Shown here one piece after another: positions 5,204-45,182 of a stretch of 53,228 nt of DNA; position 1 is the stretch's first letter; each line of letters opens with the position of its first letter. A program made the translations under genes and the position numbers. Below the pieces are notes generated by a model. The model was given only the letters and a program-made list of their open reading frames with translations. It had not been told where the DNA came from and ran no database searches. The DNA is from Candidatus Dormiibacterota bacterium (GTDB lineage Bacteria; Chloroflexota; Dormibacteria; Aeolococcales; Aeolococcaceae). Location of the stretch: NCBI GenBank assembly GCA_003141695.1, contig PLNE01000076.1:1-53228 (forward strand), written 5' to 3'.

Positions 5204-5773
5204 ATGAGAGGGGAAGCTGGCACTGGAGCTTCTGGTACCCGGCGGGGGCCAAAGGTCGTTCTCGGAATGCTGGGTGCGGTGGCGCTGATGGCGGCGACGG
5301 CGGTGGTCGCGCTGGCCAACTACGCCACCGGCCTTACCCTGACGGGTAAGTGCTTCGACACTTACACGAGCGGCACTCTCGTCACGCAAAACGCACAGAC
5401 CGCGACCCCGCCGCACAGCGTGACGCTCGAGGTCCTCGCCTCCAAAAACGGAGGCAGTACATACCCGTACTTCGTCGCGAATACCACGATCGATCTGAAG
5501 AGCGGGCAGAACTCGTACCTGTGGTCGATTTACACCTCCAACGCCGCGTACTTCGCGACGCCGTACGATGCGTGGGAGGTCACCGTCGAGTCCACCTCCG
5601 GGGTCACCAACCAGATCTCCGGGCCCGTGAAGAGCACCACGCTCTGTTCGCCCGTCCCCAACACGCCCGAGTCGCCGCTTGCGGTGGCGCTCCCGCTGGC
5701 GGGGCTTGCGATCTTCGCCGGTGCATTCGGCGTCGTGATCCGTCGCCGCCGCCGCTCGGCGTCCGCCGTCTGA
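5204..5773 (+). CDS. Secreted protein with PEP-CTERM-like tail, probable exosortase substrate
   Basis: A 189-residue protein. The ATG at 5204 is chosen for the ribosome binding site AAGGAGGGA just upstream. An N-terminal signal segment (VVLGMLGAVALMAATAVVAL) is followed by a soluble domain of about 110 residues with two cysteines that I do not recognise. The C-terminus has the three-part sorting layout: TPESP at about 154-158, a 21-residue hydrophobic helix, and RRRRR at about 180-184. TPESP resembles the PEP motif of PEP-CTERM proteins. The next gene is an exosortase, which in known systems cuts this kind of tail and fixes the protein to the cell surface. No other protein in the window carries this tail, suggesting a dedicated one-substrate system. 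Substrate status is inferred from layout and neighbourhood. Confidence 0.8.
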   Translation: MRGEAGTGASGTRRGPKVVLGMLGAVALMAATAVVALANYATGLTLTGKCFDTYTSGTLVTQNAQTATPPHSVTLEVLASKNGGSTYPYFVANTTIDLKSGQNSYLWSIYTSNAAYFATPYDAWEVTVESTSGVTNQISGPVKSTTLCSPVPNTPESPLAVALPLAGLAIFAGAFGVVIRRRRRSASAV

Positions 5774-5786
5774 GCGTCTGAAGCAT

Positions 5787-5823
5787 GGTGCCGGATCTGA
5801 ACGGCACCCCAGTGGGGGGGGGG
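5787..5823 (+). promoter_or_regulatory. Intergenic hairpin and ten-G tract before the exosortase gene
   Basis: GGTGCCG (5787-5793) pairs with CGGCACC (5802-5808) around an 8-base loop. A run of ten G follows (5814-5823) and ends five bases before the exosortase GTG. The hairpin could reduce read-through from substrate to enzyme gene. The G-run overlaps the ribosome-binding region and is of a length prone to slippage, so spacing to the start codon could vary. Both roles are inference. Confidence 0.45.
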
Positions 5824-5828
5824 AAGCG

Positions 5829-7478
5829 GTGGTGAGGCGGCCCGAGCCGGGCCGCCTCACACCGCCGCGCTGGCGGTCGCTGACGGGTGGGGGCGAGCCG
5901 CGCGCCCTGATCGTCAGGGCGGTGGTGGTCACCGCCCTGGTGGTGGTCGCCTACCAGTACTCGCTGGGGACGCTGCTCTCCAGCCTCGGTGAGGAGACCC
6001 CGCTCTCCTACCTGGGGCTGGTGCCGCTGATCTCGCTGCTCCTCATCGCCGGGCTCATCTACCTCCCCGGGCGGCCGCAGCGCGACATCCACGACCGCTA
6101 CCTCGACTACATCGTCGGCCTCCCGCTGCTGGTGGTCGCCCTGCTGGTCGTCACCCTCGGGCCGGCCAGGATGTCGACCTTCTTCTGGCTGTGGCGCCTG
6201 GACCTCCTCTCCCTTCCGCTCTTCGTCGCCGGGGCGATCGCCATCGCCTTCGGGGTCAGGATGCTGTGGCGGCTGCGCCTGCCGGTGGCCTTCCTGCTCC
6301 TCGCCTGGCCTCCGCCGTACACCCTCTGGCTCAACGGGCTGCTCAACGGCGTCACCAACCTCACCCTCTCGGCTCTGCACGCAATCGTGGGATTGCTGCC
6401 GCTGGCCGTGCCGCTCGGCTACGGCGACGGCTCGTTGTTCCAGCTCACCCACGGGAGCAGCACCTTTGTGCTGAGCGTCGCCTCCGCCTGCTCCGGGGTC
6501 AACAGCGTGCTCGGCTTCCTGCTGGTGGGGGCCGCCGCCGCGGCTCTGGTGCGAGGGCCCCGGCCGCTCAAGCTGCTCTGGCTGATCGCCGGCATGGCCC
6601 TGATCTGGAGCCTGGACGTGGTGCGGATCATCCTGATCTTCGCCGCCGCCGACCTGTGGGGCGAGAACTTCTCGATCGACGTCCTCCACCCCTTCGTCGG
6701 GCTCCTCTTCTTCAGCCTCGGAGTGCTGGGGATGATCCTCCTCATGCCGCGCTTCCGCCTCCAACTCCTGGGCCCGCCGACGGTCACGCCGTCCACCGAC
6801 AAGCCGCCCTCCGCCGTGACCGAGCCCCGGCCCCGTGTCCGGCCGCGGCCGGCGGTCCGGCGTGCTGCCATTCCGCTCCTCGTCCTCGCCGTCGCCGCCG
6901 CCGGCGTGGGCTTCGCCGACCTGGGGTTGGGCCAGTACCAGCTCCTCGCCCAGGATCTCGGACCTCCGCGGGTGCAACCGGTCACGCTGGTCGATGCGGC
7001 GGTGCCGGGATGGGCGCTGAAGTTCGTCGCCACCTACGGCTTCGACAAGCTCGAGTTCGGCACCGACTCCACCTGGGACCGCTACATGTACCTGCCCGGG
7101 GGTACTTCAGTCGTGCCGCAGACCGTGCCGATCACCCTCGACGTCATCTCCACCTCGGACCTCGGCAGCTTCTCGACCTACACGGTGGCGGACTGCTACC
7201 ACTTCCACGGTTACTCGGAGACCGAACAATCCAGTGTCGACCTGGGAGGCGGGGTCGTCGCCAACACCGTCGTCTACGAGGTCCAGGGGGGCCTGTGGTG
7301 GGCGGCGGTCTACTGGGAGTGGCCGGTGACCACGGCGTCGGGCGAGACCTACCAGCGCGTCGTGCTCAATGAGCTCGCCGACGTGAACCCGACGGGTTCG
7401 GAGGCGGCCCTGATCGCGTTCGCGCGAGACGTGGTCGTCGCGACCGGAAGTGAGTCGGCGGTCGCGAGCTCGGCATGA
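5829..7478 (+). CDS. Exosortase with C-terminal EpsI-like domain
   Basis: A 549-residue multi-pass membrane protein. The exosortase/archaeosortase catalytic triad is present: Cys221 in SACSGVNS, Arg266 in LDVVRIILIFAAA, and His287 in DVLHPFVGLLFFSLG, within about eight membrane helices. These transpeptidase-like enzymes cut the C-terminal sorting tail of a substrate and join it to a lipid or polysaccharide anchor. A further membrane segment near residue 350 is followed by a soluble domain of about 170 residues that resembles the EpsI domain often fused to or beside exosortases. Translation begins at GTG, 55 bases after the PEP-CTERM-like gene. A GT2 and a GT-C protein follow closely, so anchor synthesis and sorting may be linked (inference). 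Confidence 0.9.
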   Translation: MVRRPEPGRLTPPRWRSLTGGGEPRALIVRAVVVTALVVVAYQYSLGTLLSSLGEETPLSYLGLVPLISLLLIAGLIYLPGRPQRDIHDRYLDYIVGLPLLVVALLVVTLGPARMSTFFWLWRLDLLSLPLFVAGAIAIAFGVRMLWRLRLPVAFLLLAWPPPYTLWLNGLLNGVTNLTLSALHAIVGLLPLAVPLGYGDGSLFQLTHGSSTFVLSVASACSGVNSVLGFLLVGAAAAALVRGPRPLKLLWLIAGMALIWSLDVVRIILIFAAADLWGENFSIDVLHPFVGLLFFSLGVLGMILLMPRFRLQLLGPPTVTPSTDKPPSAVTEPRPRVRPRPAVRRAAIPLLVLAVAAAGVGFADLGLGQYQLLAQDLGPPRVQPVTLVDAAVPGWALKFVATYGFDKLEFGTDSTWDRYMYLPGGTSVVPQTVPITLDVISTSDLGSFSTYTVADCYHFHGYSETEQSSVDLGGGVVANTVVYEVQGGLWWAAVYWEWPVTTASGETYQRVVLNELADVNPTGSEAALIAFARDVVVATGSESAVASSA

Positions 7479-7496: not shown

Positions 7497-8939
7497 ATGA
7501 CGCCCGCTGAGCGGGAGGAGTACGCGCTGAGAGAGAGCGTGAACGGCCTCCGGCTGCGCCACCCGGACTTCTCCGCGAGTAGGGTCCTCACCAAGCCTCA
7601 GGTGCTCGCGCTTGCCGTTCTGGTCGGCGCCGGCGCTCTGGGCCTGATCTTCGCCCCGCTCGCCGTCGGCCTGGTGCTTTCGGGGACGATCACCGCCGTC
7701 TATGCAGCAATGCTCGTGCGCAACATCGCCATGTTCCGCCGGCTGCTCACGCCCTCCGCCGGCTTCGAGATCAGTGACGCGGAGGCGAGGGCGATACCCG
7801 ATGACGCCCTCCCCTGCTACACCGTCATGGTCCCGGCATTCGGCGAGCCCGAGATCATCGCCTCCACCCTGGAGGCGATGAACCGACTCGAGTACCCGAG
7901 ATCCCGCCTCGACGTCAAGCTGCTGCTGGAGGCCGACGACCAGGCCACCCGGGGGGCGGTGGAGGCGGCAAAGCCCGCGCCGAACATCGAAGTCGTGCTC
8001 GTCCCCCCGGCCCAGCCCCGGACAAAGCCCAAGGCTCTCAACTTCGGTCTCAGCTGGGCACGCGGCGACTACGTCACCATCTACGACGCCGAGGATCGCC
8101 CCGACCCGCTTCAGCTGCGCCGGGCGGTGGTGGCCTTCTCTCGCGCTGACCCTCGGGTGGCCTGCCTCCAGGCCAAGCTCGACTACCACAACCCGGGACA
8201 GAACCTGCTCACCGCCTGGTTCCGGCTCGAGTACCTGACCTGGTTCGGCTTCACCCTCCCAGCCATCGCACGCGGGCATACACCGGTGCCCTTGGGCGGC
8301 ACGTCCATGCACATCAGGACCACCGCGCTCAAGGCGATCGGGGCATGGGATCCCCACAACGTCACCGAGGACTGCGACCTCGGGGTGCGGCTGTACCGCA
8401 TGGGGTACCGGACGGCAATCCTCGACTCCATCACGTACGAGGAGGCCAACAGCGACCTCATCAACTGGGTCAAGCAGCGCTCCCGCTGGGTCAAGGGATA
8501 TGCGCAGAGCTGGCTCGTGCACATGCGCCACCCCATCCGACTCCGGCGCGAGCTGGGCACCCGCGGCTTCATCGGCTTCAACCTTCTCGTCGGCGCCACG
8601 ACACTGACGTCGGTGCTCAACCCCTTCCTCTGGACCCTGACCGCGCTGTGGTTCACCCTCCACCCGCTCAGCCTCTCGAGCGTCTTCCCTGACCCGATCT
8701 ACTACCCGGCAATGCTCTCCCTGATCCTTGGCAACTTCCTCGGCTACTACGCAGGTTTGATCACTCTCCGGGCCACCGGCAGGTCGGAGTTGATCAAAGC
8801 CGCGCTACTCATGCCCCTCTACTGGGTGCTGATGTCACTGGCCGCGATCCGGGCCCTCCTGCAGCTCCTCATCTCCCCCTTTGTCTGGGAAAAGACGGTG
8901 CACGGGCTGGACACGCCCCTGCCGGAGCCGCGAGCGTGA
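7497..8939 (+). CDS. Membrane GT2 glycosyltransferase, cellulose-synthase-like
   Basis: A 480-residue processive-type family 2 glycosyltransferase. Two membrane helices near residues 35-80 come before the catalytic domain. That domain has VMVPAFGEPE, the substrate aspartate pair in LLLEADDQ and YDAEDRPD, the acceptor-site TEDCD, and the QxxRW motif as QRSRW, which marks processive cellulose- or chitin-synthase-like enzymes. Four hydrophobic segments follow. It should extend a glycan from a nucleotide sugar on the cytoplasmic side and thread it through the membrane. No PilZ domain is visible, so direct cyclic-di-GMP control cannot be claimed. It starts 18 bases after the exosortase, and its last bases overlap the next gene. 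The polymer made is unknown. Confidence 0.85.
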   Translation: MTPAEREEYALRESVNGLRLRHPDFSASRVLTKPQVLALAVLVGAGALGLIFAPLAVGLVLSGTITAVYAAMLVRNIAMFRRLLTPSAGFEISDAEARAIPDDALPCYTVMVPAFGEPEIIASTLEAMNRLEYPRSRLDVKLLLEADDQATRGAVEAAKPAPNIEVVLVPPAQPRTKPKALNFGLSWARGDYVTIYDAEDRPDPLQLRRAVVAFSRADPRVACLQAKLDYHNPGQNLLTAWFRLEYLTWFGFTLPAIARGHTPVPLGGTSMHIRTTALKAIGAWDPHNVTEDCDLGVRLYRMGYRTAILDSITYEEANSDLINWVKQRSRWVKGYAQSWLVHMRHPIRLRRELGTRGFIGFNLLVGATTLTSVLNPFLWTLTALWFTLHPLSLSSVFPDPIYYPAMLSLILGNFLGYYAGLITLRATGRSELIKAALLMPLYWVLMSLAAIRALLQLLISPFVWEKTVHGLDTPLPEPRA

Positions 8940-10711
8940 GCATCGACGCCGTAGCGGTCGCACGCCCACGTTCGAGCACGCGGACCTGGCGTCTGCATCT
9001 GCATCGCCCGTCGCCCGTCGTGCTCTGTTTCGTGGTCTCCCTTCTCGTCTACGAAGCGGCCGCCTGCTACGTGAGCATCCACGGCAACACGGCCTCGCTC
9101 GCTGGCGACGGCGTCTCGCGGGTCGAGACCGCCAACGCGATCCTCTTCAGCCGCGACCCTCACCTCGCTGCCATTGGCTTTGTCTGGGGTCCCATCCCGA
9201 TCCTGGCCCTGCTGCCGCTGGCTGCCTTGAAACCGATCTGGCCGGCACTGGTCACCAGCGCATTTGCGGGCAACCTCGTGTCGGCCGTCTTCATGGCCGG
9301 GGCCGTGGCGGTGATGCTGCGCCTGCTCACCGACCTCGGTTTGAGCCGGTGGCTGCGGTGGGCGCTCACGGCTGCCTTTGCGCTCAATCCGATGATCGTC
9401 TTGTACGCCGCCAACTCGATGAGCGAGGCGTACTTCCTCTTCTTCCTTCTGCTCGTGGCCCGGGAGCTCCACCTGTGGTTGCGCACCCGGCAGACGGGAC
9501 GGCTCGTGGCCACCGGCTTCTACCTCGGCCTGGCATACCTAACCAGATACGAGTCCGGTGCGGCGGCCATCGCGGTTACGGGCATCGTCGGATTGGCCAC
9601 CTTCATCGCCAGCACCGGTGGCTTCCGGCGGCGAATCCGCCCCGCGCTCCTCGACTCGATCATCGTCGCCGCGCCATTCCTGGTCGCCTTCGCCGGGTGG
9701 GCGATCGCCAGCTGGCTGATCACCGGGGTGCCGTTCCAGCAGTTCTCGTCAGCTTACGGTAATGCGGCCCAGATTCAGGCGAACGGTCTGCAGACCCCGT
9801 CCACCCTGGCGCAGACCGTGACGTTGGCGGAGCAGGGGATCCAGTGGATGCTCGCCTTCGAGCCTTTCCTTCCGATCATCCTGGTGGCCTGCCTGCTGGT
9901 GGTCGTTTGGCGTCGCGATTGGACCGCCCTGGGCGCGCCGGCGGTCCTGGGCGCGGTCCTGGCCTTCATGGTCTATGTGCACATGACCGTCAAGGTCGTG
10001 CCATCGCTCCGGTACTACATCGCGGTCATCCCGCTCGTGGTCCTCCTCGTCGGCATCGTCCTCTCCTCCCGTTCAGACACAGCGCCGGGAGTCCCCGTGA
10101 GCCAGGCAGGGGGGCACCCGTCTGCCCCACCGAGCAGCCGGCTAGCCTCGATAGGAGGTGCCCGCGGCGATGCCCGTCTCGGGTGGGGCAGAGTGGCAAC
10201 CGTCACCGTCGCTCTGCTGGCCATGGCTGCCACGATCCCTGCGGGCTTGATGACGATCACCAACTCAGCGGACAATCCCGACGACGCGGTAGCCGTTCAG
10301 GCCCTGGTGGCGCTCGGGCCGCTGACTCAACAGCAGCAGCAGGCGTCGCTGCGATTCGTGGTCGATCGGCAGGTCAGCGAGTACATGGACTCAATGCGCC
10401 TGGGGCGCGGGACGGTGTTGATCGACAACTTCATCGGATTCGTGGTCGTGCTATCGTCATCCAATCTGGACCAGTACGTCACCACGCCAGACCTCGACTT
10501 TCAGCAGGTCCTCGCCGATCCGGCTGCGAATGGGGTGCAGTACGTCCTGATCCCGCCGAATACGGGCTTGGGCACTCTGGACGCCATCAACCGTGCCTAC
10601 CCGGACGCCTACGCCACCGGGAAGGGCATCGGTACCCTCGTCAAGACCTTCCAGGATCACAGCGACCTCGGGCACAACTGGAGGCTGTACCGAGTAACGT
10701 CCTCCAGCTGA
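8936..10711 (+). CDS. Multi-pass GT-C-type glycosyltransferase (ArnT/PMT-like)
   Basis: A 591-residue integral membrane protein with about ten or more hydrophobic segments between residues 28 and 420, then a soluble C-terminal part of about 170 residues. The pattern, with an early extracytoplasmic loop containing DGVSRVETANAI and later LAYLTRYES, fits the GT-C fold used by lipid-linked-sugar transferases of the GT39/GT83 kind. The donor would be a polyprenyl-phosphate sugar and the reaction would take place outside the membrane. The GTG start overlaps the stop of the GT2 gene (GTGA), indicating coupled translation in the exosortase operon. It could glycosylate the sorted protein or the polymer (inference). 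Family assignment is moderate, function low. Confidence 0.65.
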   Translation: MSIDAVAVARPRSSTRTWRLHLHRPSPVVLCFVVSLLVYEAAACYVSIHGNTASLAGDGVSRVETANAILFSRDPHLAAIGFVWGPIPILALLPLAALKPIWPALVTSAFAGNLVSAVFMAGAVAVMLRLLTDLGLSRWLRWALTAAFALNPMIVLYAANSMSEAYFLFFLLLVARELHLWLRTRQTGRLVATGFYLGLAYLTRYESGAAAIAVTGIVGLATFIASTGGFRRRIRPALLDSIIVAAPFLVAFAGWAIASWLITGVPFQQFSSAYGNAAQIQANGLQTPSTLAQTVTLAEQGIQWMLAFEPFLPIILVACLLVVVWRRDWTALGAPAVLGAVLAFMVYVHMTVKVVPSLRYYIAVIPLVVLLVGIVLSSRSDTAPGVPVSQAGGHPSAPPSSRLASIGGARGDARLGWGRVATVTVALLAMAATIPAGLMTITNSADNPDDAVAVQALVALGPLTQQQQQASLRFVVDRQVSEYMDSMRLGRGTVLIDNFIGFVVVLSSSNLDQYVTTPDLDFQQVLADPAANGVQYVLIPPNTGLGTLDAINRAYPDAYATGKGIGTLVKTFQDHSDLGHNWRLYRVTSSS

Positions 10712-10768: not shown

Positions 10769-12292
10769 TCACCCGTCGGCCAGCTCTGAGATCAGCGGGT
10801 CGCCAGGCCCGATGTCGTAGGAGCAGGTGTTCCCGCCACCCGGGTTGCTAGGCACGTAGTCCCAGGGCAGGAACCCGCTGATGCCGGCAGCGAACTGCGC
10901 GGACATCTTGGCGCCCATGTAGCTTGCGCGGGTCGCGTCCGAGACGCATCCCGACAGGCCGTCCTGCGCCTGGGTGCCGACCTCGCCAACGATGAGGGGC
11001 TTGCCATCCGCATGCGCTGCGGCCAGGGTGGCTGAGAGATATCCTGGCAGCGCCATGGTGTCGGATCCGTAGTCGTGGTAGCTGGCCACGTCGACACCCG
11101 AGCTGCCCATTACGTACCCGTAGTCGCTGCCCTGCGCACCGCACTGACCAATCCCCTGCATCCCGGACTCGATGAGAGCAGTGGGATCGAGGCTGTGGGC
11201 CTCGGCCCCCACGGTGTCAAAGAAGGAGCGCAGCGCCTGGGCCGCCTGCGTCTCGTTGACGCAGACGTAGCCGGACTGGGTGGGTGACGGCTCGCTGACC
11301 AGCTCGATCATGGCGATGGTCGGGTTGTTCGCATAGCGCTGGAGAAAGTCCTGCATGTAGTCCCAGTAGGAGAGCGGGGTGCTGGCCGGCCACGCACTGC
11401 TGTCATGGACGTCCATGTAGCCGCCGCCATACCAGGCGGCGTCCTTCCACTCGTTGTCATCGCAGGTGCCGCTCTCGCCAGTGAGTGCCGGGATGACCTT
11501 GATCCCGTATTCGGCCGCAGTGTCGATGACCCGGTCGATGCCGGCCCAGTCCAGCTGGCCGGTGGTGTAGTTGGTGGCCAGGGCCTGGAAGGCCCAGAAG
11601 CGGACCACGTCATTGGGGGCAAGCGAAGAGAACAGATCGTCCAACTGGGTGTCGGTGAGCTCGGGGCCGCAGCCGGCGTTGACGCCCCAATCGGTGGCCG
11701 CCTCGTAGGCGTTGACCCCAGTGAAGGTCCAGGGACTGCCGTCGAGGCACAACTGATCACCGCAGCGGGTCACGAATCCGGAGGAGCCTCCTCCGGGCGT
11801 GGGAACAAACGCCGCCGGGGAGCTTGATGTCGAGGTGCCGGCGGGCTGGCTGGCCGACGAGGAACCGGAGGTGCTCGAGCCCGCCGCCACGACGGTCGTG
11901 CCCGTGCCCGTGCCGGTGCCCGACGGGGTCGCGGAACTGGTGCCCGACGGGGTCGCGGAACTGGTGCCCGACGCGGTCGCGGAACTGGTGCCCGACGCGG
12001 TCGCGGAACTGGTGTCCAATGGAGTCGCGGAACTGGTGCTCGCCGGGGTCGCCGTGCCGGACGGCGAAGCGGTGGGCGCACCCGCCGACGTCGATGTGGG
12101 GATGGCTGTGGCAGTGCCTTGGAGATCCGCGAGGGATCCGGACGGACCGGACGCGGACGCCGCTGCCGGCCGCGAGGGGTTGACGGGCCCAGCGCCCACC
12201 GTCAGCCCTGTGGTCAGGGTGAGGGCCATCACTCCGAAGAGGGCGGTCCCCCTCAGCAGCCGCGATGACCGCAACCTGCCCAGCCAGCGCAT
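10769..12292 (-). CDS. Secreted GH5-type glycosidase (mannanase-like) with Ser/Thr linker
   Basis: A 507-residue exported enzyme. A signal peptide spans about 1-34 and a Ser/Thr/Pro/Ala-rich linker about 35-167, with repeated SSATPSGT-like units. A TIM-barrel domain then begins at CLDGSPWTFTGVNAYEA, a start typical of GH5 endo-mannanases. The nucleophile is seen in LIVGEVGTQ. The acid/base segment reads IELVSEPSP, where the usual Asn-Glu-Pro has Ser in place of Asn, an unusual change next to the catalytic Glu. The ribosome binding site GGAGGAG sits just ahead of the ATG. A cyclic-di-GMP-I riboswitch lies in its leader, so expression should follow cyclic-di-GMP level. The natural substrate is unproven. 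Confidence 0.82.
   Translation of the reverse strand: MRWLGRLRSSRLLRGTALFGVMALTLTTGLTVGAGPVNPSRPAAASASGPSGSLADLQGTATAIPTSTSAGAPTASPSGTATPASTSSATPLDTSSATASGTSSATASGTSSATPSGTSSATPSGTGTGTGTTVVAAGSSTSGSSSASQPAGTSTSSSPAAFVPTPGGGSSGFVTRCGDQLCLDGSPWTFTGVNAYEAATDWGVNAGCGPELTDTQLDDLFSSLAPNDVVRFWAFQALATNYTTGQLDWAGIDRVIDTAAEYGIKVIPALTGESGTCDDNEWKDAAWYGGGYMDVHDSSAWPASTPLSYWDYMQDFLQRYANNPTIAMIELVSEPSPTQSGYVCVNETQAAQALRSFFDTVGAEAHSLDPTALIESGMQGIGQCGAQGSDYGYVMGSSGVDVASYHDYGSDTMALPGYLSATLAAAHADGKPLIVGEVGTQAQDGLSGCVSDATRASYMGAKMSAQFAAGISGFLPWDYVPSNPGGGNTCSYDIGPGDPLISELADG
11927..12046 (-). repeat. Five 24-bp tandem units coding the Ser/Thr linker
   Basis: Five head-to-tail 24-base units (plus-strand form GGTCGCGGAACTGGTGCCCG plus four bases) occupy 11927-11950, 11951-11974, 11975-11998, 11999-12022 and 12023-12046. 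The first three are nearly identical and the last two diverge. They encode repeated eight-residue SSAT-rich steps of the flexible linker. Copy number is likely to vary between strains through slippage, changing linker length without changing frame. Confidence 0.85.
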
Positions 12293-20342: not shown

Positions 20343-22427
20343 GTGAGCATGGACATCGGCCGGACGCTGACGCTGCTGCTGACGATCAGCGGCGGCCTGA
20401 TCGCGCTCGCCCCCCTCTACCTGCTGGTGCTCGCAGTGGCCGCGCTGCTGCACCGCCACGCGGAGCCGGCGCCCGGTCGCGGTGAGAGCCGGATCGCGGT
20501 GCTCGTACCCGCTCACGATGAGGAGCCGTTGATCTCAGGCTGCCTGGCCTCGCTCCGGTCCCAGGACTACCCGGCCGGCCGCTTCCGGCTGGTGGTCATC
20601 GCCGACAATTGCAGCGACGGCACCGCCGACGCGGCCCGAAAGGCGGGCGCCGAGGTGCTGGTTCGCGACGAGCCCGAGCTCCGGGGGAAGGGGCGGGCCC
20701 TGCGCTGGGCGATGGACCGCCTTCTCAGCGAGCTCGACCCGCCCGATGCGATCGCCGTTGTAGACGCCGACTCGACCGCCGATCCGGGCATGCTCCGCGC
20801 CCTCGAGGCCGTCCTGGCCGGCGGCGCGGAGGCGGCCCAGGCCGACTACCTCGTCCTCGACGGCAGCGGGTCGGGGACACCCCTTCGCCAGGCGGCGTTT
20901 CTGCTCTTCCACCGCACCCGCTTCGCGGGAAGGGCGGCGCTGGGCCTTCCCTGCTCCCTCGTCGGCAACGGGATGATGTTCCGGCGCAACCTGCTCGAGC
21001 GGCTGCCCTGGAGCGCATTCAGCGGTGCCGAGGACCTCGAGTACTCGATCGACCTCCGGATCGCAGGTGTCCGGCCCGGCTTTGCGGCGGCGGCTAGCGT
21101 GGCAGGCCCCGCACCCGGCTTTGGAAGGGGCGCCGCCACCCAGCGGATGCGCTGGGAGGGGGGACGCTTCCACGTGGTGAGAACCCGACTGCCCCGCCTC
21201 CTCTGGGCCGCTCTGCGGCACCGCGACGCTTCGCTCGCCGAGGCCTCTCTGGACCTCGCCATCCCCCCTCTCGGGCTGCTGACCATGCTTGCCCTCCTCG
21301 GGGACGCCGCCAGCGTGGCCGCGACGGTCGGCGGGCTGGTTCCCCCGTGGGCGGGTGCCACCTGGTGGGCGGCGTCGCTGCTGCTCACCACCTACGTCTT
21401 CGTCGGCCTGCGCGCCGCGCGAGCCCCGAGCTCCGCCTACCGCGCCCTCCTCCACACCCCCCGGTTCCTCGTCGCCAAGATCGGCACCTACCTCCGGATG
21501 ACACGGGGGCTGGGTGCGGACCGCTGGGAGCGCACGGAGCGGCCGGCGGAGGCGTCGCTCCGGAAGCGCCGGAAGACGGTGGCGAGCAGCGCCCCCGCTC
21601 TTTCGCGGGTCATCATCGGCGGCGTCCCCATCGACACGGTCGACGAGCAGGGGGCCGCCGAGAGGATGATGGCCGCGATCGGGGCGGACGCGCCGCTGCA
21701 GGTGAGCACCGTCAACCTGCAGTTCCTGGTCACCGCGCGGCGCCGGCCGGAGGTGCGGAAGGCCCTCAATGGTGCCGGCCTCAACGTGGCCGATGGCGCT
21801 CCCGTCCTGTGGCTGGCTCGCCTTCTGGGGCATCCCCTCCCGGCCCGTGTGGCCGGAGCGGACCTGGTCCCCACGCTGATGGGTCTCGCCGCCCAGCGTG
21901 GTGCTCGGGTCTTTCTCCTGGGCGGGACGGGGGGGGTGGCCGCAGAGGCTGCCACCCTTCTCGAACGTGCCAACCCCGGTCTCCAGATCACCGGAACCCA
22001 TGAGCCCCCGCCGGCGGCCGTGGACGAGATGGCGGATGACGAGATCCTGAGCCGCGTGGGTGAGGCCGGTGCTGACATCCTGCTGGTCGCGTTCGGCCAT
22101 CCCAAGCAGGACCTCTGGATCGCGCGCAACCTGGACCGTCTCCCGGTGTCAGTGGCCATCGGAGTGGGTGGTACCTTCGACCTGATCGCGGGGCGCTTGC
22201 ATCGGGCCCCCGCCTGGGCTCGTCGGAGCGGATTGGAGTGGCTCTTCCGGCTCGCCCAGGAGCCGCGCCGGCTCGGGCTCCGGTACGCCGCATGCGCCGT
22301 CTGGCTACTGGGCGTGCTCGTGCCCGCCACCGCCTGGCAGCGGCTGGTGGGGGCTCCCAACCGTATCGCCCACGACGCGGCGGAGGCCCGCGCCGCAGAA
22401 CCCGGCCATGAGGCGGCGATCTCGTGA
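20343..22427 (+). CDS. Fusion of a GT2 transferase and a WecG/TagA/CpsF transferase
   Basis: A 694-residue protein combining two glycosyltransferases. The N-terminal half (about 1-400) is a membrane GT2: VLVPAHDEEP, VVIADNCSDGTAD, VVDADSTADP, the GAEDLEYS acceptor motif and a QxxRW motif as QRMRW, then hydrophobic segments. The C-terminal part (about 425-660) is a WecG/TagA/CpsF (GT26) domain: VNLQFLVTARRRPE, ADGAPVLWLARLLG, VFLLGGTGG, AFGHPKQDLWIA and GVGGTFDLIAG. GT26 enzymes add the second sugar to a lipid-linked primer. The fusion therefore joins two consecutive steps in one polypeptide (inference). GTG at 20343 or ATG at 20349 may be the start. The stop overlaps the acyltransferase gene. 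Confidence 0.88.
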   Translation: MSMDIGRTLTLLLTISGGLIALAPLYLLVLAVAALLHRHAEPAPGRGESRIAVLVPAHDEEPLISGCLASLRSQDYPAGRFRLVVIADNCSDGTADAARKAGAEVLVRDEPELRGKGRALRWAMDRLLSELDPPDAIAVVDADSTADPGMLRALEAVLAGGAEAAQADYLVLDGSGSGTPLRQAAFLLFHRTRFAGRAALGLPCSLVGNGMMFRRNLLERLPWSAFSGAEDLEYSIDLRIAGVRPGFAAAASVAGPAPGFGRGAATQRMRWEGGRFHVVRTRLPRLLWAALRHRDASLAEASLDLAIPPLGLLTMLALLGDAASVAATVGGLVPPWAGATWWAASLLLTTYVFVGLRAARAPSSAYRALLHTPRFLVAKIGTYLRMTRGLGADRWERTERPAEASLRKRRKTVASSAPALSRVIIGGVPIDTVDEQGAAERMMAAIGADAPLQVSTVNLQFLVTARRRPEVRKALNGAGLNVADGAPVLWLARLLGHPLPARVAGADLVPTLMGLAAQRGARVFLLGGTGGVAAEAATLLERANPGLQITGTHEPPPAAVDEMADDEILSRVGEAGADILLVAFGHPKQDLWIARNLDRLPVSVAIGVGGTFDLIAGRLHRAPAWARRSGLEWLFRLAQEPRRLGLRYAACAVWLLGVLVPATAWQRLVGAPNRIAHDAAEARAAEPGHEAAIS

Positions 22428-23596
22428 CCCGGACCGGACGGCGGCTCGACGGAGTCGATGGCCTGCGAGCGCTGGCTGCTCTGTGGGTGGTCCTCTTCCA
22501 CATCCGCGCCTTCACCGGGGCCCGCCTGGGACCGTTCGACTTCTTCGTACGCAGCGGATCCACCGGGGTCAGCCTCTTCCTGGTGCTGAGCGGCTTCTGC
22601 CTTTACCTTCCGATCGCACGCGGCGGGGCCGAGAACTTCCGGGTCTGGCGTTTCCTGCGCCGGCGCGCCACCCGACTTCTCCCCGCCTACTACGTCTCAC
22701 TCGCCGTGGTCCTGCTGGTCACCGTCCTTGCGGCCACCCAGCTCGGGCTCACTCCCCTCAGCGTGCCCGGGGTGGCGATCCAGGCGGCAACCCACCTGAC
22801 CATGACTCATTCGCTCTTCCCGAGCACCTTCTACGCCCTGAACGGCGCCTACTGGTCGTTGGGCCTGGAGTGGCAGCTCTACCTCGGACTGCCGCTCCTC
22901 GTCATCGGAGTGCGGCGGTTCGGGCTGGCCCGCACCGTCGCCGCCGTGGTCGTGGTGAACATCGCCTACCGGCTCGGCCTCCAGGTCGCGATCGACGCGC
23001 ACGCGATCGCCGCTGGATCGGGGTTGGCCACCGATGTGCTGCCCAATCTGCTTCCCGGCAGGTGGGCGGAATTCGGCTTCGGCATGGTCGCCGCCAGTCT
23101 GTACGCGACCGGGCGGATCGGCCGGTGGGCGCCGCGGGCCGGGTGGGCCATCCTCGGGCTAGTGCCGCTCACGACGGTCGCGGTGCTGTCCGTGGGCAGC
23201 CCGCTGGAACATCTCCTCTTCGGGGCGGTGTTCTTCCTCCTTCTCTGCGTCGTGGCGGCCGGTGGGAACTGGCTCAGCCGGCTGGTCTCGTGGCGACCTC
23301 TCGCGGCGGTGGGGGTGATGTCATACAGCCTCTACCTGGTTCACCAGCCGATCGTCCGGACTCTGAGCTTCCTTCTCCAGCACACCGGATCGCCACAACT
23401 GGTGTTCCTCGAGGTGCTCCTCTGCGTTCCGGGGATACTGGTCATCGCCTGGCTGCTCTTCGTCGCCGTGGAGCGGCGCACTCTACGTTCCTCAGGAGAC
23501 ACCGAGCCGGGCAGCCCGGAGGCACTCCTCCTCGCACCCCTCCGGTGGACGCGCCGCCGCGGCGGGTCATCGCCGGGAGTGACGGAGGCCGCCTAG
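22424..23596 (+). CDS. Acyltransferase family 3 (OafA-type) membrane protein
   Basis: A 390-residue protein with about ten membrane helices. The family start is typical: RLDGVDGLRALAALWVVLFH with the catalytic-type His, followed by GVSLFLVLSGFCLY and an Arg-rich RFLRRRATRLLPAYY. These enzymes move acetyl or other acyl groups across the membrane onto sugars of exported polysaccharides. The GTG start overlaps the stop of the GT2-WecG fusion (GTGA), so the modification is probably part of the same polymer pathway. The tail after residue 345 is polar. The acyl donor and acceptor are not known. Confidence 0.88.
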   Translation: MTRTGRRLDGVDGLRALAALWVVLFHIRAFTGARLGPFDFFVRSGSTGVSLFLVLSGFCLYLPIARGGAENFRVWRFLRRRATRLLPAYYVSLAVVLLVTVLAATQLGLTPLSVPGVAIQAATHLTMTHSLFPSTFYALNGAYWSLGLEWQLYLGLPLLVIGVRRFGLARTVAAVVVVNIAYRLGLQVAIDAHAIAAGSGLATDVLPNLLPGRWAEFGFGMVAASLYATGRIGRWAPRAGWAILGLVPLTTVAVLSVGSPLEHLLFGAVFFLLLCVVAAGGNWLSRLVSWRPLAAVGVMSYSLYLVHQPIVRTLSFLLQHTGSPQLVFLEVLLCVPGILVIAWLLFVAVERRTLRSSGDTEPGSPEALLLAPLRWTRRRGGSSPGVTEAA

Positions 23597-23861
23597 CCTG
23601 CTTCAGGCGGCGACGGCGCGGGCGCAGCCGGGCGCAGGCCGGACGCCACAAGGCGCGGGTCGGCTCCGTGCCAAGACACCGCCGTTGGACTTCCTACTGC
23701 TCGTGGCGTCCCCGAGGATGAGGCCATCGCGCCGTCTGGTGGGAAGTTGGAGGATGGCGGCGCGGACAGCGTGGGAGGCCCGGTCTCGTAGGGACATTCG
23801 CCCAGCGTCTGAGCGGAGAGTTCCCATCGCGTCACGATCCGGTGGCGTGCAGGATTTATAC

Positions 23862-25388
23862 ATGCTCACCGACGACAGGTTCACCGACGAAGAGGTGTCG
23901 CTGACCGGCGTCAGAGTGTCGACTCGATACCCGGCGCTGCGGCTCACCGTCCTTCCCGGGGAGATGTCGGACGGAAGCCCCACCCGGCAGATCGCCACCG
24001 CGCGCTGGCGCGCCTCCCTTATCGGATGCGATCTGCTCGCCGCCGTAGGCGCCACCCTCCTGGCCGTGGTCGGCCGGTTTGGGGTGACTCAGCCGCTCGG
24101 ACCCACGGCGCCCTACGTCGCCCTCGTCGGCGTGGGTCCTCTGGTCTGGGTCGCTCTGCTGCTGACGACCGGCACATACCAGGAGCGGCGGATCGGTACC
24201 GGCACGGCCGAGTTTGGCCGTATCGCCAACGCCGGGCTGTGGATGTTGGCGGCACTGGTCGCCGGATCCTATCTGACCCACAGTGAGCTGTCGCGCGAGG
24301 TGACCGCGGTCGCCGTCCTGGCGATGACCTGCTTGAGTCTGGGAACGCACATCGCCGGACGGCTGCTCCTGCACCGGCGCATCCGCGTCGGCGGGGCGAT
24401 CCACCGTGTGATCGTGCTCGGCTCCGAGACCGAAGCGCGAGGACTCGTCGACCACATCACACGGCTACCCAATGCCGGGCTCAAGGTGGCAGGCGTCTTC
24501 ATGGTCGAGGGTGCGGATCGCGGGAAGGGTTCGGCCTTTGGGTTGGTGTGCCCAGTCGACGAGGTCATCCAGACGGCCCGAGATGCCGGCGCCGACACCG
24601 TCGCGGTCGCCGGCTCGGGAGTCCTGAGCGGCGCCGATCTCCGCCGCCTCTCCTGGGACCTCGAGGGCACCGGCATCCGGCTGCTCCTCGCCCCGGACGT
24701 CACCGAGCTCGCCGGCCCCCGGCTGGTGGTCCGCCCGGTGGGCGGGCTGCCCCTGCTCGATGTCAAGGAGGCCAGCTTCACGGCCACCAGCTGGGCGCTC
24801 AAGTCGTCCCTCGATCGCGTGGTGGCCGTCGCCCTCTGCATCGTGCTGTCCCCCATCCTGGCCGGCATCGCCCTGGCGGTTCGCGTGAGCAGCCCTGGTC
24901 CCGTCCTCTTCCGCCAGAAGCGAGTGGGTCGGCACGGCCAGGAATTCACCCTCCTCAAGTTCCGGACGATGTACCAGGGCGCCCACCAGCAGCGAGACGC
25001 GCTGCTCGCCCACAACGACCACGACGGCGTCCTCTTCAAGATCCGGAAGGATCCGCGGATCACCCCGATCGGACGCTTCCTCCGCCGCTACTCGCTGGAC
25101 GAGCTGCCTCAGATCTGGAATGTCCTCACCGGCACGATGTCGCTGATCGGACCCCGTCCACCGCTGCAGTCGGAGGTCGACGCCTACCCGGCCGACCTGC
25201 GGCGCCGGCGCCTCCTGGTCAAGCCCGGAATGACCGGGCTCTGGCAGGTGAGCGGCCGTTCGGACCTCTCCTGGGAGGAGACGATCCGGCTCGACCTCGA
25301 GTACGTGGAGAACTGGTCGGTGCTGCTCGACGCAGCCGTGGTCTGGAAGACATTCCGAGCCGTGACCTCGGGTCGCGGCGCGTACTGA
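23862..25388 (+). CDS. Undecaprenyl-phosphate sugar phosphotransferase (WbaP/ExoY type)
   Basis: A 508-residue polyprenyl glycosylphosphotransferase that would start the repeat unit by placing a sugar-1-phosphate on undecaprenyl phosphate. The N-terminal part has about four membrane helices and a nucleotide-binding-like region (HRVIVLGSETEARGLV). The catalytic C-terminal domain carries FRQKRVGRHGQEFTLLKFRT (the family block), SLDELPQIWNVLTG, SLIGPRPP and KPGMTGLWQVSGR. The ATG at 23862 is chosen because it gives normal family length and has AGGA nearby; the frame is open to 23685. The 265 bases upstream hold no gene. It is the only priming transferase in the window, so central to the pathway. 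Confidence 0.92.
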   Translation: MLTDDRFTDEEVSLTGVRVSTRYPALRLTVLPGEMSDGSPTRQIATARWRASLIGCDLLAAVGATLLAVVGRFGVTQPLGPTAPYVALVGVGPLVWVALLLTTGTYQERRIGTGTAEFGRIANAGLWMLAALVAGSYLTHSELSREVTAVAVLAMTCLSLGTHIAGRLLLHRRIRVGGAIHRVIVLGSETEARGLVDHITRLPNAGLKVAGVFMVEGADRGKGSAFGLVCPVDEVIQTARDAGADTVAVAGSGVLSGADLRRLSWDLEGTGIRLLLAPDVTELAGPRLVVRPVGGLPLLDVKEASFTATSWALKSSLDRVVAVALCIVLSPILAGIALAVRVSSPGPVLFRQKRVGRHGQEFTLLKFRTMYQGAHQQRDALLAHNDHDGVLFKIRKDPRITPIGRFLRRYSLDELPQIWNVLTGTMSLIGPRPPLQSEVDAYPADLRRRRLLVKPGMTGLWQVSGRSDLSWEETIRLDLEYVENWSVLLDAAVVWKTFRAVTSGRGAY

Positions 25389-25389
25389 G

Positions 25390-26052
25390 CTGCCCGGCGC
25401 GATCCGCTCCCCGACCCGGGATCTCGCCCGCGCCATCCAGCGCCCCCGTGTCGACATCGTCATCGCCGGCGACAGCCTCACCGCCGGCATGCACGCGTCG
25501 GACCGCCGCCGCAGCTATCCCGCCCTGGTCGTGGCGTCCCTCACAGCAGCCGCCGGTGGGCCGGCGTCGGCGCACGTCGCGGGCCTCCCCGGCGGGCGGG
25601 TCCAGGACCTCCTCCGGCGGCGCCCCCCGGTCGGCCGCCGGCTCGTCGTGGTCGAACTGGGCACCAATGACTGGGTTGGATACCGGCCGAGCGGGCCCTG
25701 GAGGGCCACGCCGCTGGCGGAGTTCCGAGGGTTGTACGCCCGTCTGGTGCAGCGCCTGGTGGGCCGGGGGACGCCGATGCTGATCTGCCTGGGGGTCTGG
25801 GGACCGTCAGGGGGATGCAGCGAGGTCGGCGCGGCCCTTGACGGCTTCGACAGGGTGATCGCCGCGGAGTGCGGAGCTCGAGGCGGGCGGTTCGTGCCGC
25901 TCTCCGCCATTCACGACGACCCGGACGCGCGCGGTCCCGCGGGGCGGTCGACGCCATTCGGGGTGTCCGACGAGACGCACTCCAACGATCGGGGTCACGC
26001 CCTCATCGCCGGCCTGGTTGCGGCGGCGGCTAGCGCGCGGGCAGCGTCCTGA
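25390..26052 (+). CDS. SGNH/GDSL-type hydrolase with a non-standard start
   Basis: A lipase/acylhydrolase-like protein of about 220 residues. Block I GDSLTAG is encoded at 25471-25488, block III is ELGTNDW, and the catalytic Asp/His block is DETHSNDRGH. The first ATG (25489) falls after block I and would remove the catalytic Ser, so the gene must start earlier. In that frame the nearest upstream stop is at 25363, and no ATG, GTG or TTG occurs between it and block I. CTG at 25390, one base after the WbaP stop, is the best candidate and would be translationally coupled. A sequencing error is the alternative. The role may be esterase trimming of acylated polymer. It overlaps the convergent GT9 gene by 23 bases. 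Confidence 0.72.
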   Translation: MPGAIRSPTRDLARAIQRPRVDIVIAGDSLTAGMHASDRRRSYPALVVASLTAAAGGPASAHVAGLPGGRVQDLLRRRPPVGRRLVVVELGTNDWVGYRPSGPWRATPLAEFRGLYARLVQRLVGRGTPMLICLGVWGPSGGCSEVGAALDGFDRVIAAECGARGGRFVPLSAIHDDPDARGPAGRSTPFGVSDETHSNDRGHALIAGLVAAAASARAAS

Positions 26053-27226
26053 GCATCCCCAGGGCGGCACGCGAGACCTCGGCGGCGCTCAGCTGCGCGA
26101 GCCCGCCGACTCCACGGCAGATCGGTGACTCGCACCCTGAGAGCACCCCCCAACGGCCCAGCTCGCACCAGCTCCCCCCCGCCCGGATTCCGCCCGGCTG
26201 GAGCACCCGGCGAGCCGCGCTCGGCTCCATCCCGGTTAGGCGGCCGTCCTCCGGCCCGAGAAGCACCAGGCTCGGCGTACCGACGGCGCCGGCCACCGAC
26301 GACGCCGCGCTGTTAACACAGATCAGGAGATCGAGGCGCCGAACCACCTCGACCAGCTCGCCGAAGCTGGTCCGCCCCACCGCCCGGATCGGAGCGACGG
26401 GCAGCTCGGCAGAGACCTCCTCCTGGAGGGCCAGCTCGTTGGCCGACCCGGTGAGGATGATGGTCGCGCCGATCTCCCGCTGCAGGGTCGCAGCGACCGC
26501 TGCGAAGCGGTCCGGCAACCACTGCTGGCAGGACCAGTCTGCGCCGGCGTGGATCCCGACCAGGGGCCGGCGCGTCCCGGCGATCAGGCGTCCGGCGGCT
26601 GCGATCTCCGCTGGCGACGGCCAGAGCTCCACGGGGCCGCCGTCATCGCTGATCCCCACCGCCGCCAACACCCGAGCGTTCTCCCGCCGCGACGACTCGA
26701 CGGAGGCGGCGGGAGCCGCGGCGTGCGTATACCCGTCCGAGCCATCGCTGACCCCGGCGCGGATCCGCGATCCGACAGCCCCGGCGAGGCGGCGCATGGG
26801 CCTGTTGCTGCGGTGCAGCACCAGAGTGGCGTCGTACCGGCGCCGCCTCAGCCTCAGGCTCAGGGCGGTGACCACCGCCCCCTTCTCGACGCGGCCGAGC
26901 GACGTTCCCTTGTGCTGGAAGTCCCTCCATTCGATCACCGCATCGACATAGGGGCAGTGGCTGAGCACGGGACGGGCGCTGCGCAGCGCCAGCACGTCGA
27001 GGCGCGCCCCGGGCAGCGCCGCGCGGAGGCTGCGGAGAGCCGGTGTCGCAGCCATGGTGTCGCTGAGATGGCCGTACACGACGACCAGCAAACTCCGGCA
27101 GTCGGAGAGACAATCCACCTGGGGGGGAAGGAGAACCTCCGCTGCCGCGTCTGCAGGCCCGGCCGTGACGGCCATGCTCAGAGCGTGCCACACCGCGAGG
27201 TGCTCACTCCATAGGCGAGATGGCAC
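26030..27226 (-). CDS. GT9-family glycosyltransferase (heptosyltransferase-like)
   Basis: A 398-residue protein from GTG, with AGAGGA upstream. Its two-domain GT-B pattern fits GT9: an N-terminal VVVYGHLSDTMAATPALRSL (the family's usual R-x-G-D-x-L replaced by YGHLSD), then VGIHAGADWSCQQWLPDRFA, ILTGSANE and DLLICVNSAASSVAGAVGTP. GT9 enzymes move heptoses in lipopolysaccharide and related sugars in other glycans. In a lineage without visible outer-membrane genes it probably serves the surface polysaccharide (inference). It is last in a minus-strand operon starting near 32871. It converges with, and slightly overlaps, the SGNH gene. Confidence 0.82.
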   Translation of the reverse strand: MPSRLWSEHLAVWHALSMAVTAGPADAAAEVLLPPQVDCLSDCRSLLVVVYGHLSDTMAATPALRSLRAALPGARLDVLALRSARPVLSHCPYVDAVIEWRDFQHKGTSLGRVEKGAVVTALSLRLRRRRYDATLVLHRSNRPMRRLAGAVGSRIRAGVSDGSDGYTHAAAPAASVESSRRENARVLAAVGISDDGGPVELWPSPAEIAAAGRLIAGTRRPLVGIHAGADWSCQQWLPDRFAAVAATLQREIGATIILTGSANELALQEEVSAELPVAPIRAVGRTSFGELVEVVRRLDLLICVNSAASSVAGAVGTPSLVLLGPEDGRLTGMEPSAARRVLQPGGIRAGGSWCELGRWGVLSGCESPICRGVGGLAQLSAAEVSRAALGMLRTLPAR

Positions 27227-27284
27227 CGAGGATGTCCTCTATCGCCCATGCCCGCTGGGGCAAGGCCCGGAGGGGCGCTGCCGC

Positions 27285-29264
27285 TCATGCCGACGGCAGG
27301 GACTCCACGAGCCCCATGCCGGCGAGCAGCCGAGCATAGCGAGAGGCGGTTCGAGGGGTCACGTTGATGAGCCGCCCCGACGAGCCGCCTTCGGCCACCC
27401 ACCGGCACATCGCGAAGAGAGCGGATCCTCGAGACCAGATCGGACCGCTGAAGGCCCAGAGGCAGGTGTCGAGGGTGCCGATCAGCCAACCGGGGTGCCC
27501 GCCCCGGAGCAGGCGCCGTTCGGCTCGGCGGAGGTCGGAGAGGTCGTTCACCGTGATGAAGGGAGTCCACCCATCCCAGCGGCCGGCGGTGTAAGTCATG
27601 GCGGTCAGTCCCCCGATGTCGACGACCGCCCGCGGCGGCCCTCCAAAGGCGGCGCAGGTGAAGGCGTACTCGAAGCCCGCCTCGCGCACCGCCTCGAGCA
27701 CCCCGCGCCCTGGCGCTCCGGGCTGGAACTCGGTGAAGGGGCGGATCGGCTCGAAGAGGCGTCGCGCGGGGCTGTCGCGTACGAGTGCCCGCAGCGACCT
27801 CCCACCGCTCAGGTTGGCTGCGCCCTCAAACGAGGACCCGAGAGGGCGGGGGTGGTAACGCACCCGCACATAGGGCGGTCCCGCCCCGACCGCCACCCGC
27901 CGGGGCGACTGCGGCACGAGGGGAGCATCCATCACCGGCCACCACCCGAGTGGCGCGTTCTCCCGGCCGCCGAGCCGCTCGGCGACCTCGGCGACGCTGC
28001 GGCGAAGCGTCGCCGAGAAACGGTCCAGGGGCGCCTCCGACTCGATCATCGCCCCACACCCGGCGCTCGCGAGCAGGAGCTCGACATGGGGTGCCAGACC
28101 CCCGAGATGGCGCGGTAGACGGGTCAGGGTGAGGGGGGGGCAGGACATCTGAGCGAAGCTCGCGGTGGTGAGCACCAGCCCGGCCGCGAGCGAGGTGAGG
28201 CCGAGCACGTCGGCCAGGGCGTGGAGGCTCTCGAGCTCCCGAGCCATCCCGGTCCAGAAGAGGAGTGTGGTGAGGACGCGGCCCTCGCGGGCCCAGGCGC
28301 GAAGCTGTCGATCGCTCGGCTCGACGGGCGAAGCCATGGCCGGCCAGGGAGCGGGCGCTTCGGCGAGCACGGGGAAGGGTGGCCTCCCCGGATCGACCAA
28401 TTGAAACGCGGTCCCCAGCCGCGAGAGGGCCAGGAAGTCGCGGTCGTCGTGCTGGCGGCCATGGACGGCGTCCACCTGGCGGAGCGGCTCGGCAAGACGC
28501 TCCACCACCTCGGTCTGCGGCGAGCCGTGAATCCCCACCCAGCCCCGTCGGACCGCGGTCGGGACCCATCTCCCCACCAGCTCGGGATCCCCGAGGAGGA
28601 AGCCGCGACGATGCACCGCCCAGCGCTCCGCCATCCAGATGGTCTCGGTCGCGACCGATAGCGTCGGCTGCGGCCGCAGCTCGGTGGCCCCCTCGAGCGG
28701 CGGGCCGGCGAGCCAGAGCGTCTCGACCTCCCTCCCCTGGCTCAATGGACGCAGCTCATCCTCATCCCGCTCCGCGACCGCCAGCAACCGCCGGTGGACG
28801 ACCTCGGGGAAGGCGAAGGCGCCGAGCCCGGCGCCGGGTGCACGGCCCCGGCCCACGACGAGCAGGGTGCCCGGCATCCTCTCCGAGCTGGCGGCGAAGA
28901 CCTCCCCATAGAACTGGACCACCTCCGCACTGCGGGAGCGAAACCGGACCCCGAGCTCATCGAGGGTCGGGGTCAGCACGGACGGGCCCAGCGATGCGGC
29001 CTCGACATCGAATCGCCCGAGCACGAGAAGGAGTTGCTCGAGGTGGTGAGCGCCGGTGAAGGTTCCGCCACGCATGTCGTTGGGATCGCCGCCGAGGGGG
29101 GTCCCACCGCCGTAGTGGCTGCCCGTGGGCCGGGCGTCGAAGTAGCACTCGAACAGCTTGCCCTCGGCCTCGGCCAGCCAGGCCAGGGTCGCGCAGACGG
29201 CGTCGCGGTCCGGGTGGTCGGCGGGGGCGAGGAAGAGGAGCAGCGGTGGCCGGTGACGCGGCAT
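27285..29264 (-). CDS. Unknown 659-residue protein in the glycosyltransferase operon
   Basis: I do not recognise this protein. It has no signal peptide and no clear membrane helix. It opens with PPLLLFLAPADHPDRDAV. Conserved-looking features include CYFDARPTGSHYGGGTP near residue 40, several CxxP and AGCGAM segments in the middle, and a C-terminal section beginning EAGFEYAFTCAAFGG near residue 540, faintly like the last strand of polysaccharide-deacetylase (NodB) domains, though no NodB metal motif is visible. It lies between a 138-residue unknown protein (9 bases upstream) and GT9 (58 bases downstream) in a minus-strand operon with GT4, GT2 and a methyltransferase. A role in sugar-polymer assembly is inferred from context only. 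Confidence 0.7.
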   Translation of the reverse strand: MPRHRPPLLLFLAPADHPDRDAVCATLAWLAEAEGKLFECYFDARPTGSHYGGGTPLGGDPNDMRGGTFTGAHHLEQLLLVLGRFDVEAASLGPSVLTPTLDELGVRFRSRSAEVVQFYGEVFAASSERMPGTLLVVGRGRAPGAGLGAFAFPEVVHRRLLAVAERDEDELRPLSQGREVETLWLAGPPLEGATELRPQPTLSVATETIWMAERWAVHRRGFLLGDPELVGRWVPTAVRRGWVGIHGSPQTEVVERLAEPLRQVDAVHGRQHDDRDFLALSRLGTAFQLVDPGRPPFPVLAEAPAPWPAMASPVEPSDRQLRAWAREGRVLTTLLFWTGMARELESLHALADVLGLTSLAAGLVLTTASFAQMSCPPLTLTRLPRHLGGLAPHVELLLASAGCGAMIESEAPLDRFSATLRRSVAEVAERLGGRENAPLGWWPVMDAPLVPQSPRRVAVGAGPPYVRVRYHPRPLGSSFEGAANLSGGRSLRALVRDSPARRLFEPIRPFTEFQPGAPGRGVLEAVREAGFEYAFTCAAFGGPPRAVVDIGGLTAMTYTAGRWDGWTPFITVNDLSDLRRAERRLLRGGHPGWLIGTLDTCLWAFSGPIWSRGSALFAMCRWVAEGGSSGRLINVTPRTASRYARLLAGMGLVESLPSA

Positions 29265-29273
29265 CAGCAGAGG

Positions 29274-31952: not shown

Positions 31953-31953
31953 G

Positions 31954-32871: not shown

Positions 32872-33020
32872 GGGACAGCCAACACTCGGCCTGGGACACG
32901 TGTCTCGATCATGCGTGGTGCGCCCATTCCCCGCACCGCCGATGGAGCCCACCCTTCGCAGAAGGAACAAAGGGCGGGATTCCCGGTTCTGGTTGGGGAC
33001 GACCGCAAGGAGGTTTCGAC

Positions 33021-36482: not shown

Positions 36483-36620
36483 GGTCCGCTGGGCCACAGG
36501 CCTTCCCGGTCGCCTTGGCGCGACGCCGGCCGGTTCGGTATCAGCGCACCCAGCATGCGGGCTTCGCGAGTTGGTAGGATGGCTGGCTCGTACGCGTGAC
36601 AGCATCAGGGAGAGCCCGCC

Positions 36621-38015: not shown

Positions 38016-38038
38016 CGGCGGACGCGATCCCGAGCCGA

Positions 38039-39565: not shown

Positions 39566-39675
39566 GATAGGGCAGCTACCGTGCGTGGCCAATGGTGATC
39601 GCCGGAAGGCCCGGCCGGGGATCACGGCTCCGAGCAGGACATCCGCCCAGCACCCACGGCCGATGTCCCGGCATC

Positions 39676-42455: not shown

Positions 42456-42456
42456 G

Positions 42457-45178: not shown

Positions 45179-45182
45179 GGCC

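Follow-up and report, generated by a model that had tools for sequence, protein, structure and literature searches.

Several described systems resemble the one we report here. In PEP-CTERM/exosortase systems (EpsH, XrtA; TIGR02595, TIGR02602, PF09721), an enzyme with eight transmembrane (TM) helices and Cys, Arg, and His residues is paired with a tripartite C-terminal tail on secreted proteins, in the setting of an exopolysaccharide locus. PEP-CTERM was reported by Haft et al. (2006) from bacteria that have an outer membrane and from no others (PMC1569441). Archaeosortase A and its PGF-CTERM substrates provide a precedent for cleavage that is coupled to anchoring: the substrates are lipid anchored, not released (PMC7157517). 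For a cyanobacterial exosortase, work published in 2025 reported changes in several secreted PEP-CTERM proteins of the mutant, but a peptide spanning the PEP-CTERM domain was never detected (PMC12188702). A search of the openly accessible literature turned up no papers that deal with exosortases of Chloroflexota or of monoderms. Two exceptions to the outer-membrane rule became known later, namely the archaeosortases and the Gram-positive XrtG family, and XrtD and XrtW are long exosortases that are fused to EpsI. We know of no recognized tail substrates for XrtG.

The window, which is the whole 53,228-nucleotide stretch that we analyzed, contains a four-gene cassette at the margin of a large exopolysaccharide locus (Table 1). 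The cassette encodes a small secreted substrate, a long exosortase, a family 2 glycosyltransferase (GT2), and a multi-TM protein. The substrate and exosortase genes are separated by 55 bases and the exosortase and GT2 genes by 18 bases, and the gene for the multi-TM protein overlaps the GT2 stop by 4 bases. We think it likely that the four genes form a new subtype of exosortase cassette, dedicated to one substrate and carried by a monoderm lineage, in which the tail is cut at or near its PExP motif and the protein is probably transferred to a glycan made by the same operon. A first-pass annotation of this DNA had already described the 189-residue secreted protein with its TPESP motif, 21-residue helix, and RRRRR, the exosortase in the next gene with its three catalytic residues, and the GT2 gene after it, and all of these were confirmed.

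Table 1. Features of the cassette and its surroundings, in coordinates of the window
Feature	Position	Strand	Evidence or remarks
Small secreted substrate gene, 189 aa	5204..5773	+	ATG behind AAGGAGG
Sorting tail, TPESP + 21 hydrophobic residues + RRRRR	5663..5755	+	Tail profile E 1.6e-19, 1.1e-13
TPESP motif of tail	5663-5677	+	
21 hydrophobic residues of tail	5678-5740	+	
RRRRR of tail	5741-5755	+	
Exosortase gene, 549 aa, unnamed subtype	5829..7478	+	PF09721, TIGR04178
8-TM EpsH-type domain of exosortase	5934-6752	+	
Exosortase catalytic codon, Cys221	6489..6491	+	Invariant in 12/12, then 17/17
Exosortase catalytic codon, Arg266	6624-6626	+	Invariant in 12/12, then 17/17
Exosortase catalytic codon, His287	6687-6689	+	Invariant in 12/12, then 17/17
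Exosortase C-terminal domain, residues ~378-545, beta-rich, extracytoplasmic	6960..7463	+	Invariant Cys456, His460 (7194-7208)
GT2 glycosyltransferase, CelA/PgaC-like, membrane-bound	7497..8939	+	PF13641 1.3e-31
Multi-TM protein, probable GT-C type glycosyltransferase	8936..10711	+	Weak NCBIfam NF047440
Secreted GH5-like glycoside hydrolase	10769..12292	-	PF00150 3.1e-7
Surrounding exopolysaccharide locus	20343..48680		WecG/GT2, acyltransferase, WbaP-type sugar transferase, GT4s, Wzx-like flippase, Wzy_C ligase/polymerase, nucleotide-sugar epimerase

The exosortase matches PF09721 (8.7e-20, 71.6 bits; cut-off 25.7) and TIGR04178 (47.7 bits; cut-off 23), and the catalytic residues are invariant across the aligned long homologs (Table 1). 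Together with the co-occurring tripartite tail, these features place the enzyme, as judged from its sequence, in the exosortase/archaeosortase superfamily. However, it scores far below the curated cut-offs of the named subtypes XrtA, D, G, H, S, V, W, X, and CrtC. In particular, it reaches just 44.7 bits against TIGR02602 (cut-off 105.6) and 51.5 bits against XrtA (cut-off 208). The exosortase and its PExP tail are a new subtype, ordinary in its superfamily membership.

The C-terminal domain of the exosortase had been labeled EpsI-like in the first-pass annotation, and it does sit where EpsI stands in EpsI fusions. We could not confirm this label: in four representatives, the domain had no Pfam match, including to EpsI (PF11984), at E ≤ 10, and TIGR02914 (EpsI) did not match the exosortase at E ≤ 1. 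XrtD and XrtW are similar in length and also have a C-terminal extracytoplasmic domain, but the window's enzyme scores 37.6 and 35.7 bits against their models (cut-offs 400 and 425). Structure prediction gave models of low confidence that we could not use (mean pLDDT 48 and 50), and the weak model of the C-terminal domain had no Foldseek match in the PDB at E ≤ 0.001. Although the domain has no family match, its Cys456 and His460 are invariant in all 17 homologs, and they may form a second active site or a metal site.

The substrate has an N-terminal hydrophobic signal sequence, a globular part of ~110 amino acids with two cysteines, and the tail, so that its C terminus reads TPESP-LAVALPLAGLAIFAGAFGVVI-RRRRR-SASAV-stop. 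(An AlphaFold model from the single sequence had a pLDDT of 48, which is too weak to use.) When we searched 61 related genomes using the entire substrate as the query, we found one full-length ortholog, in G018 (39% identity, E = 5.1e-22), which retains both cysteines (C50 and C148). The same query also matched many unrelated proteins over its last ~50 residues. A profile built from 14 tails was then run over the same 61 genomes. Of the strong matches, all 40 that we inspected were true C termini, within 26 residues of the stop, and contained PE (39 matches) or PD (1 match). Except for those in G008, these 40 matches were confined to genomes that carry the exosortase. We also inspected 17 weak matches from genomes without the enzyme, and none of them proved to be a PExP tail. 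Across 62 collected tails, the consensus is [VTLI]-P-E-[AVST]-P-[LWA], followed by 17 to 20 hydrophobic residues and then an arginine cluster (RRRR); PExP is kept in 57 of the 62. Unrelated bodies that share one tail are what is predicted for a sorting signal, and we conclude that the tail is a real one. TPESP had been proposed to be a variant recognition motif, but given this consensus, it is the usual motif of the PExP class and not a private variant: normal PExP tails of the class are found on up to ~30 unrelated proteins in sister genera.

The tail also differs from those of the known systems. Its motif is P-E-x-P instead of P-E-P, and it scores 7.7 bits against TIGR02595 (cut-off 16). The motif of XrtJ/PExPT-CTERM (TIGR04200) does read PExP, and 4 of the 14 tails match that model weakly, but the window's tail gives no match to it at E ≤ 10, nor do the XrtJ models match the window's enzyme at E ≤ 1. 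Current models of sorting signals fail to recognize the PExP motif, which brings to light dozens of surface proteins from lineages that are uncultured.

The bodies of the substrates vary. The proteins upstream of the exosortase in G020, G108, and G109 form one family with a protein from G018 (G018-C120). We considered whether the window's substrate is homologous to this family and rejected the idea, as a profile comparison aligned only residues 139 to 188, in the tail region. A lipoprotein-like substrate of 92 residues is encoded just a few bases ahead of the second exosortase of G018. In G157 (L221:3200-3574), two tandem minimal substrates, which are barely more than a signal sequence and a PExP tail, lie directly upstream of the exosortase. 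In G033, a kumamolisin pro-domain protein bears a PExP tail (L070:2141-4921), and the same locus encodes another tail protein with a weak match to BNR repeats.

Across the 110 genomes of the class, the tail (at E ≤ 1e-6) was present in 11 of the 12 carriers of the long exosortase but in just 2 of the other 98 genomes (p = 2e-12); kinship among the genomes makes this and the following p-values optimistic, and because the tail profile was drawn partly from this class, held-out tests weigh more. Among genomes that had not contributed to the first profile, the tail was present in 3 of 4 that carry the exosortase versus 1 of 51 others (p = 6e-4). Across 400 genomes sampled evenly from the phylum, the tail was found in 5 of 6 held-out genomes with the long exosortase, as compared to 21 of 395 overall (p = 1.5e-6). 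Despite the optimistic p-values, adjacency provides independent support for the pairing: in five held-out genomes from other families (G108, G109, G157, G211, and G389), the tail gene is directly upstream of the exosortase and on the same strand. The first-pass annotation had proposed to check whether the substrate and the enzyme co-occur in related genomes, and they do: in several other families of the phylum, a homologous or analogous small tail protein is encoded just ahead of the enzyme. The two tail-positive genomes without a detected exosortase (G008 and G063) are metagenome-assembled genomes (MAGs) that are 79% and 82% complete. The enzyme is present without a proven tail in G007 and G265, and it is absent from six further genomes of the window's genus. 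A LuxR-type regulator and a kinase are encoded close to the tail proteins of G063 (L168).

One observation that speaks against the pairing is that the ortholog in G018 is not beside the enzyme, though exosortases are present elsewhere in that genome. This ortholog (G018:C51, locus L067) lies beside rsmH/mraZ, as in the window, and the next gene encodes a 1,482-amino-acid beta-propeller protein instead of an exosortase. This arrangement suggests that the enzyme was lost or moved.

A tree of 14 exosortases has two subclades, which are split with 100/100 support: subclade A comprises the enzymes from the window genome (G000), G018 (two), G020, G108, and G109, and subclade B comprises those from G007, G009, G012, G015 (two), G028, G033, and G048. 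Adding four enzymes that are more distant left the split intact, but the long branches of G157 and G265 make the deep order of this larger tree uncertain. Genomes of subclade A have one to three full tails each, and wherever a subclade A enzyme is not truncated by the end of a contig, the gene just before it encodes a small tail protein. In contrast, three genomes of subclade B have 26 to 32 matches to the tail profile, most of them strong. In the window genome, which has a single exosortase, a search for other tails found one full-length tail in the assembly; the next 20 matches begin at profile position 10 or later and hence lack the PE motif. This assembly is 79.6% complete, which leaves a 20% chance of having missed one further substrate, 4% for two, and 0.04% for five. 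So, the earlier proposal of one enzyme with one substrate is true for the window genome and for subclade A, but not for subclade B. The tail counts and the tree show that this type of enzyme exists in "dedicated" versions and in "general" versions with up to ~30 unrelated substrates per genome.

Omp85/BamA was detected in seven diderm control genomes, but it was absent from the window genome and 60 of 61 relatives. A second set of 20 genomes, almost all of them exosortase carriers from the phylum, lacked it throughout, as did every exosortase-bearing genome that we tested. The window genome does contain a sortase. Given the absence of Omp85 and the near-universal sortases, a monoderm envelope is likely, so the host lineage is probably monoderm, as the first-pass annotation had supposed. 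The high GC content, the sortases, and the lack of Omp85 would fit Chloroflexota or a sister group. Exosortases were described as a trait of bacteria with an outer membrane (PMC1569441), and systems of this kind were long thought to be absent from lineages that, like this one, apparently lack that membrane. A one-enzyme, one-substrate cassette in such a host, together with probable glycan-making partners from its own operon, is the simplest setting for asking whether exosortases attach proteins to glycans.

The order of exosortase, GT2, and GT-C genes is kept in most loci and in at least four families, and counterparts of the multi-TM protein in other loci are 27 to 55% identical. Calling the multi-TM protein GT-C, as the first-pass annotation did, could not be confirmed: it scores 24.6 bits against the putative glycosyltransferase family NF047440 (cut-off 200), and it has no Pfam match to any glycosyltransferase family. 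An exosortase is also paired with a GT2 in bacteria by XrtG (Gram-positive) and XrtP (TIGR03110/03111, NF053846), but the window's enzyme scores just 13.8 bits against XrtG (cut-off 102.8), and its GT2 scores 26 to 31 bits against the models of the GT2 partners (cut-offs 364 and 520). Relatives of the GH5-like hydrolase also adjoin the cassette in G018, G020, G028, G012, G108, G211, and G389. A second secreted GH5-like enzyme in the window (36621-38015) ends in a TM helix and RRR without PExP, that is, in a plain anchor.

Could the tail be an LPXTG-like signal that is cut by the ordinary sortase of the class, with the exosortase as an incidental neighbor? The layout of LPXTG tails is similar, sortase A is a functional analog in monoderms, the window genome has a sortase, and the isolated tail scores 19.2 bits against TIGR01167 (LPXTG; cut-off 15.9). 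However, that match spans only the helix and the arginines (positions 12 to 33 of 34), TPESP lacks the threonine-glycine of LPxTG, and PExP is what 57 of 62 tails retain. Furthermore, sortases, which are unrelated enzymes, show no correspondence with the tail: they are found in 56 of the 61 relatives, whereas PExP tails occur only alongside the exosortase and in two incomplete MAGs, and the tail gene repeatedly adjoins the exosortase. We rejected sortase as the tail's enzyme because sortase is near-universal and the tail is not, and we consider this explanation very unlikely. It is likewise very unlikely that the tail is a plain stop-transfer anchor (positive-inside) that holds the protein in the membrane while the enzyme acts on something else: a hydrophobic helix with arginines is a generic anchor, and the same genomes encode several anchors without PExP, but PExP is kept across unrelated proteins and tracks the enzyme, and it was seen in 0 of 17 generic anchors inspected in genomes without the exosortase.

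Another explanation is that the exosortase cuts and releases the protein without ligating it to a glycan, and that the polysaccharide made by the glycosyltransferases is unrelated. Loss of EpsH did not affect polysaccharide synthesis in Methylobacillus (PMC1569441), GT2 genes are generic content of exopolysaccharide loci, the glycosyltransferase genes are in the opposite orientation in G012, and at locus L068 the enzyme is found without them. On the other hand, GT2 and GT-C genes follow the enzyme in most loci, in at least four families, and the substrates of archaeosortase are lipid anchored rather than released (PMC7157517). Overall, we view release without ligation as unlikely, but far from negligible.

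In the reading that we prefer, transfer to a glycan, the substrate would be exported by Sec, and its anatomy suggests that the PExP tail would then keep it in the membrane. The Cys, Arg, and His of the exosortase are expected to be at the outer face of the membrane. By analogy to the rest of the family, the enzyme would cut at or near PExP, form a thioester with Cys221, and pass the substrate to an acceptor. Judging from the conserved gene order, the most likely acceptor is a glycan, either lipid-linked or on the surface, that the operon's GT2 and multi-TM transferase would make, and the mature protein would coat the cell or the capsule. What supports the coupling to glycan synthesis that was proposed earlier is the conserved operon with glycosyltransferases; the chemical link is putative. 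More tentatively, it is possible that this monoderm phylum has its own exosortase/PExP-CTERM sorting, in dedicated and general versions, with proteins ligated to a GT2/GT-C glycan from the same operon. If so, the ligating PExP system would be a bacterial counterpart of archaeosortase that operates in parallel to sortase in the same cells. Archaeosortase A and PGF-CTERM likewise combine a single-membrane cell, a tripartite tail, and proteolysis coupled to anchoring (here, the coupling would be by analogy), but that system is archaeal, has a PGF motif, and has a demonstrated lipid anchor (PMC7157517).

Three closely related NarL-type response regulators are encoded around the cassette (1688-2644, 3786-4439, and 15622-16545), one of them beside a histidine kinase (2890-3789), and they are likely regulators of the cassette locus.

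We also noticed other exosortases in the phylum. A second, short family of exosortase-like proteins (~190 amino acids) is present in other families of the class (L077:9183-9752, L078:3281-3868, and in G094, G099, and G109 [L170, L172, and L173]). The closest models are archaeosortase C/thaumarchaeosortase. These short proteins adjoin GT2-containing proteins with a "VVPE" or "IPE" tail and are possibly another enzyme-tail pair. Finally, canonical EpsH-type exosortases (137 to 202 bits) are found in ten other genomes of the phylum (G271, G119, G423, G314, G174, G181, G237, G195, G311, and G222; loci L174-L183), all of which lack Omp85.
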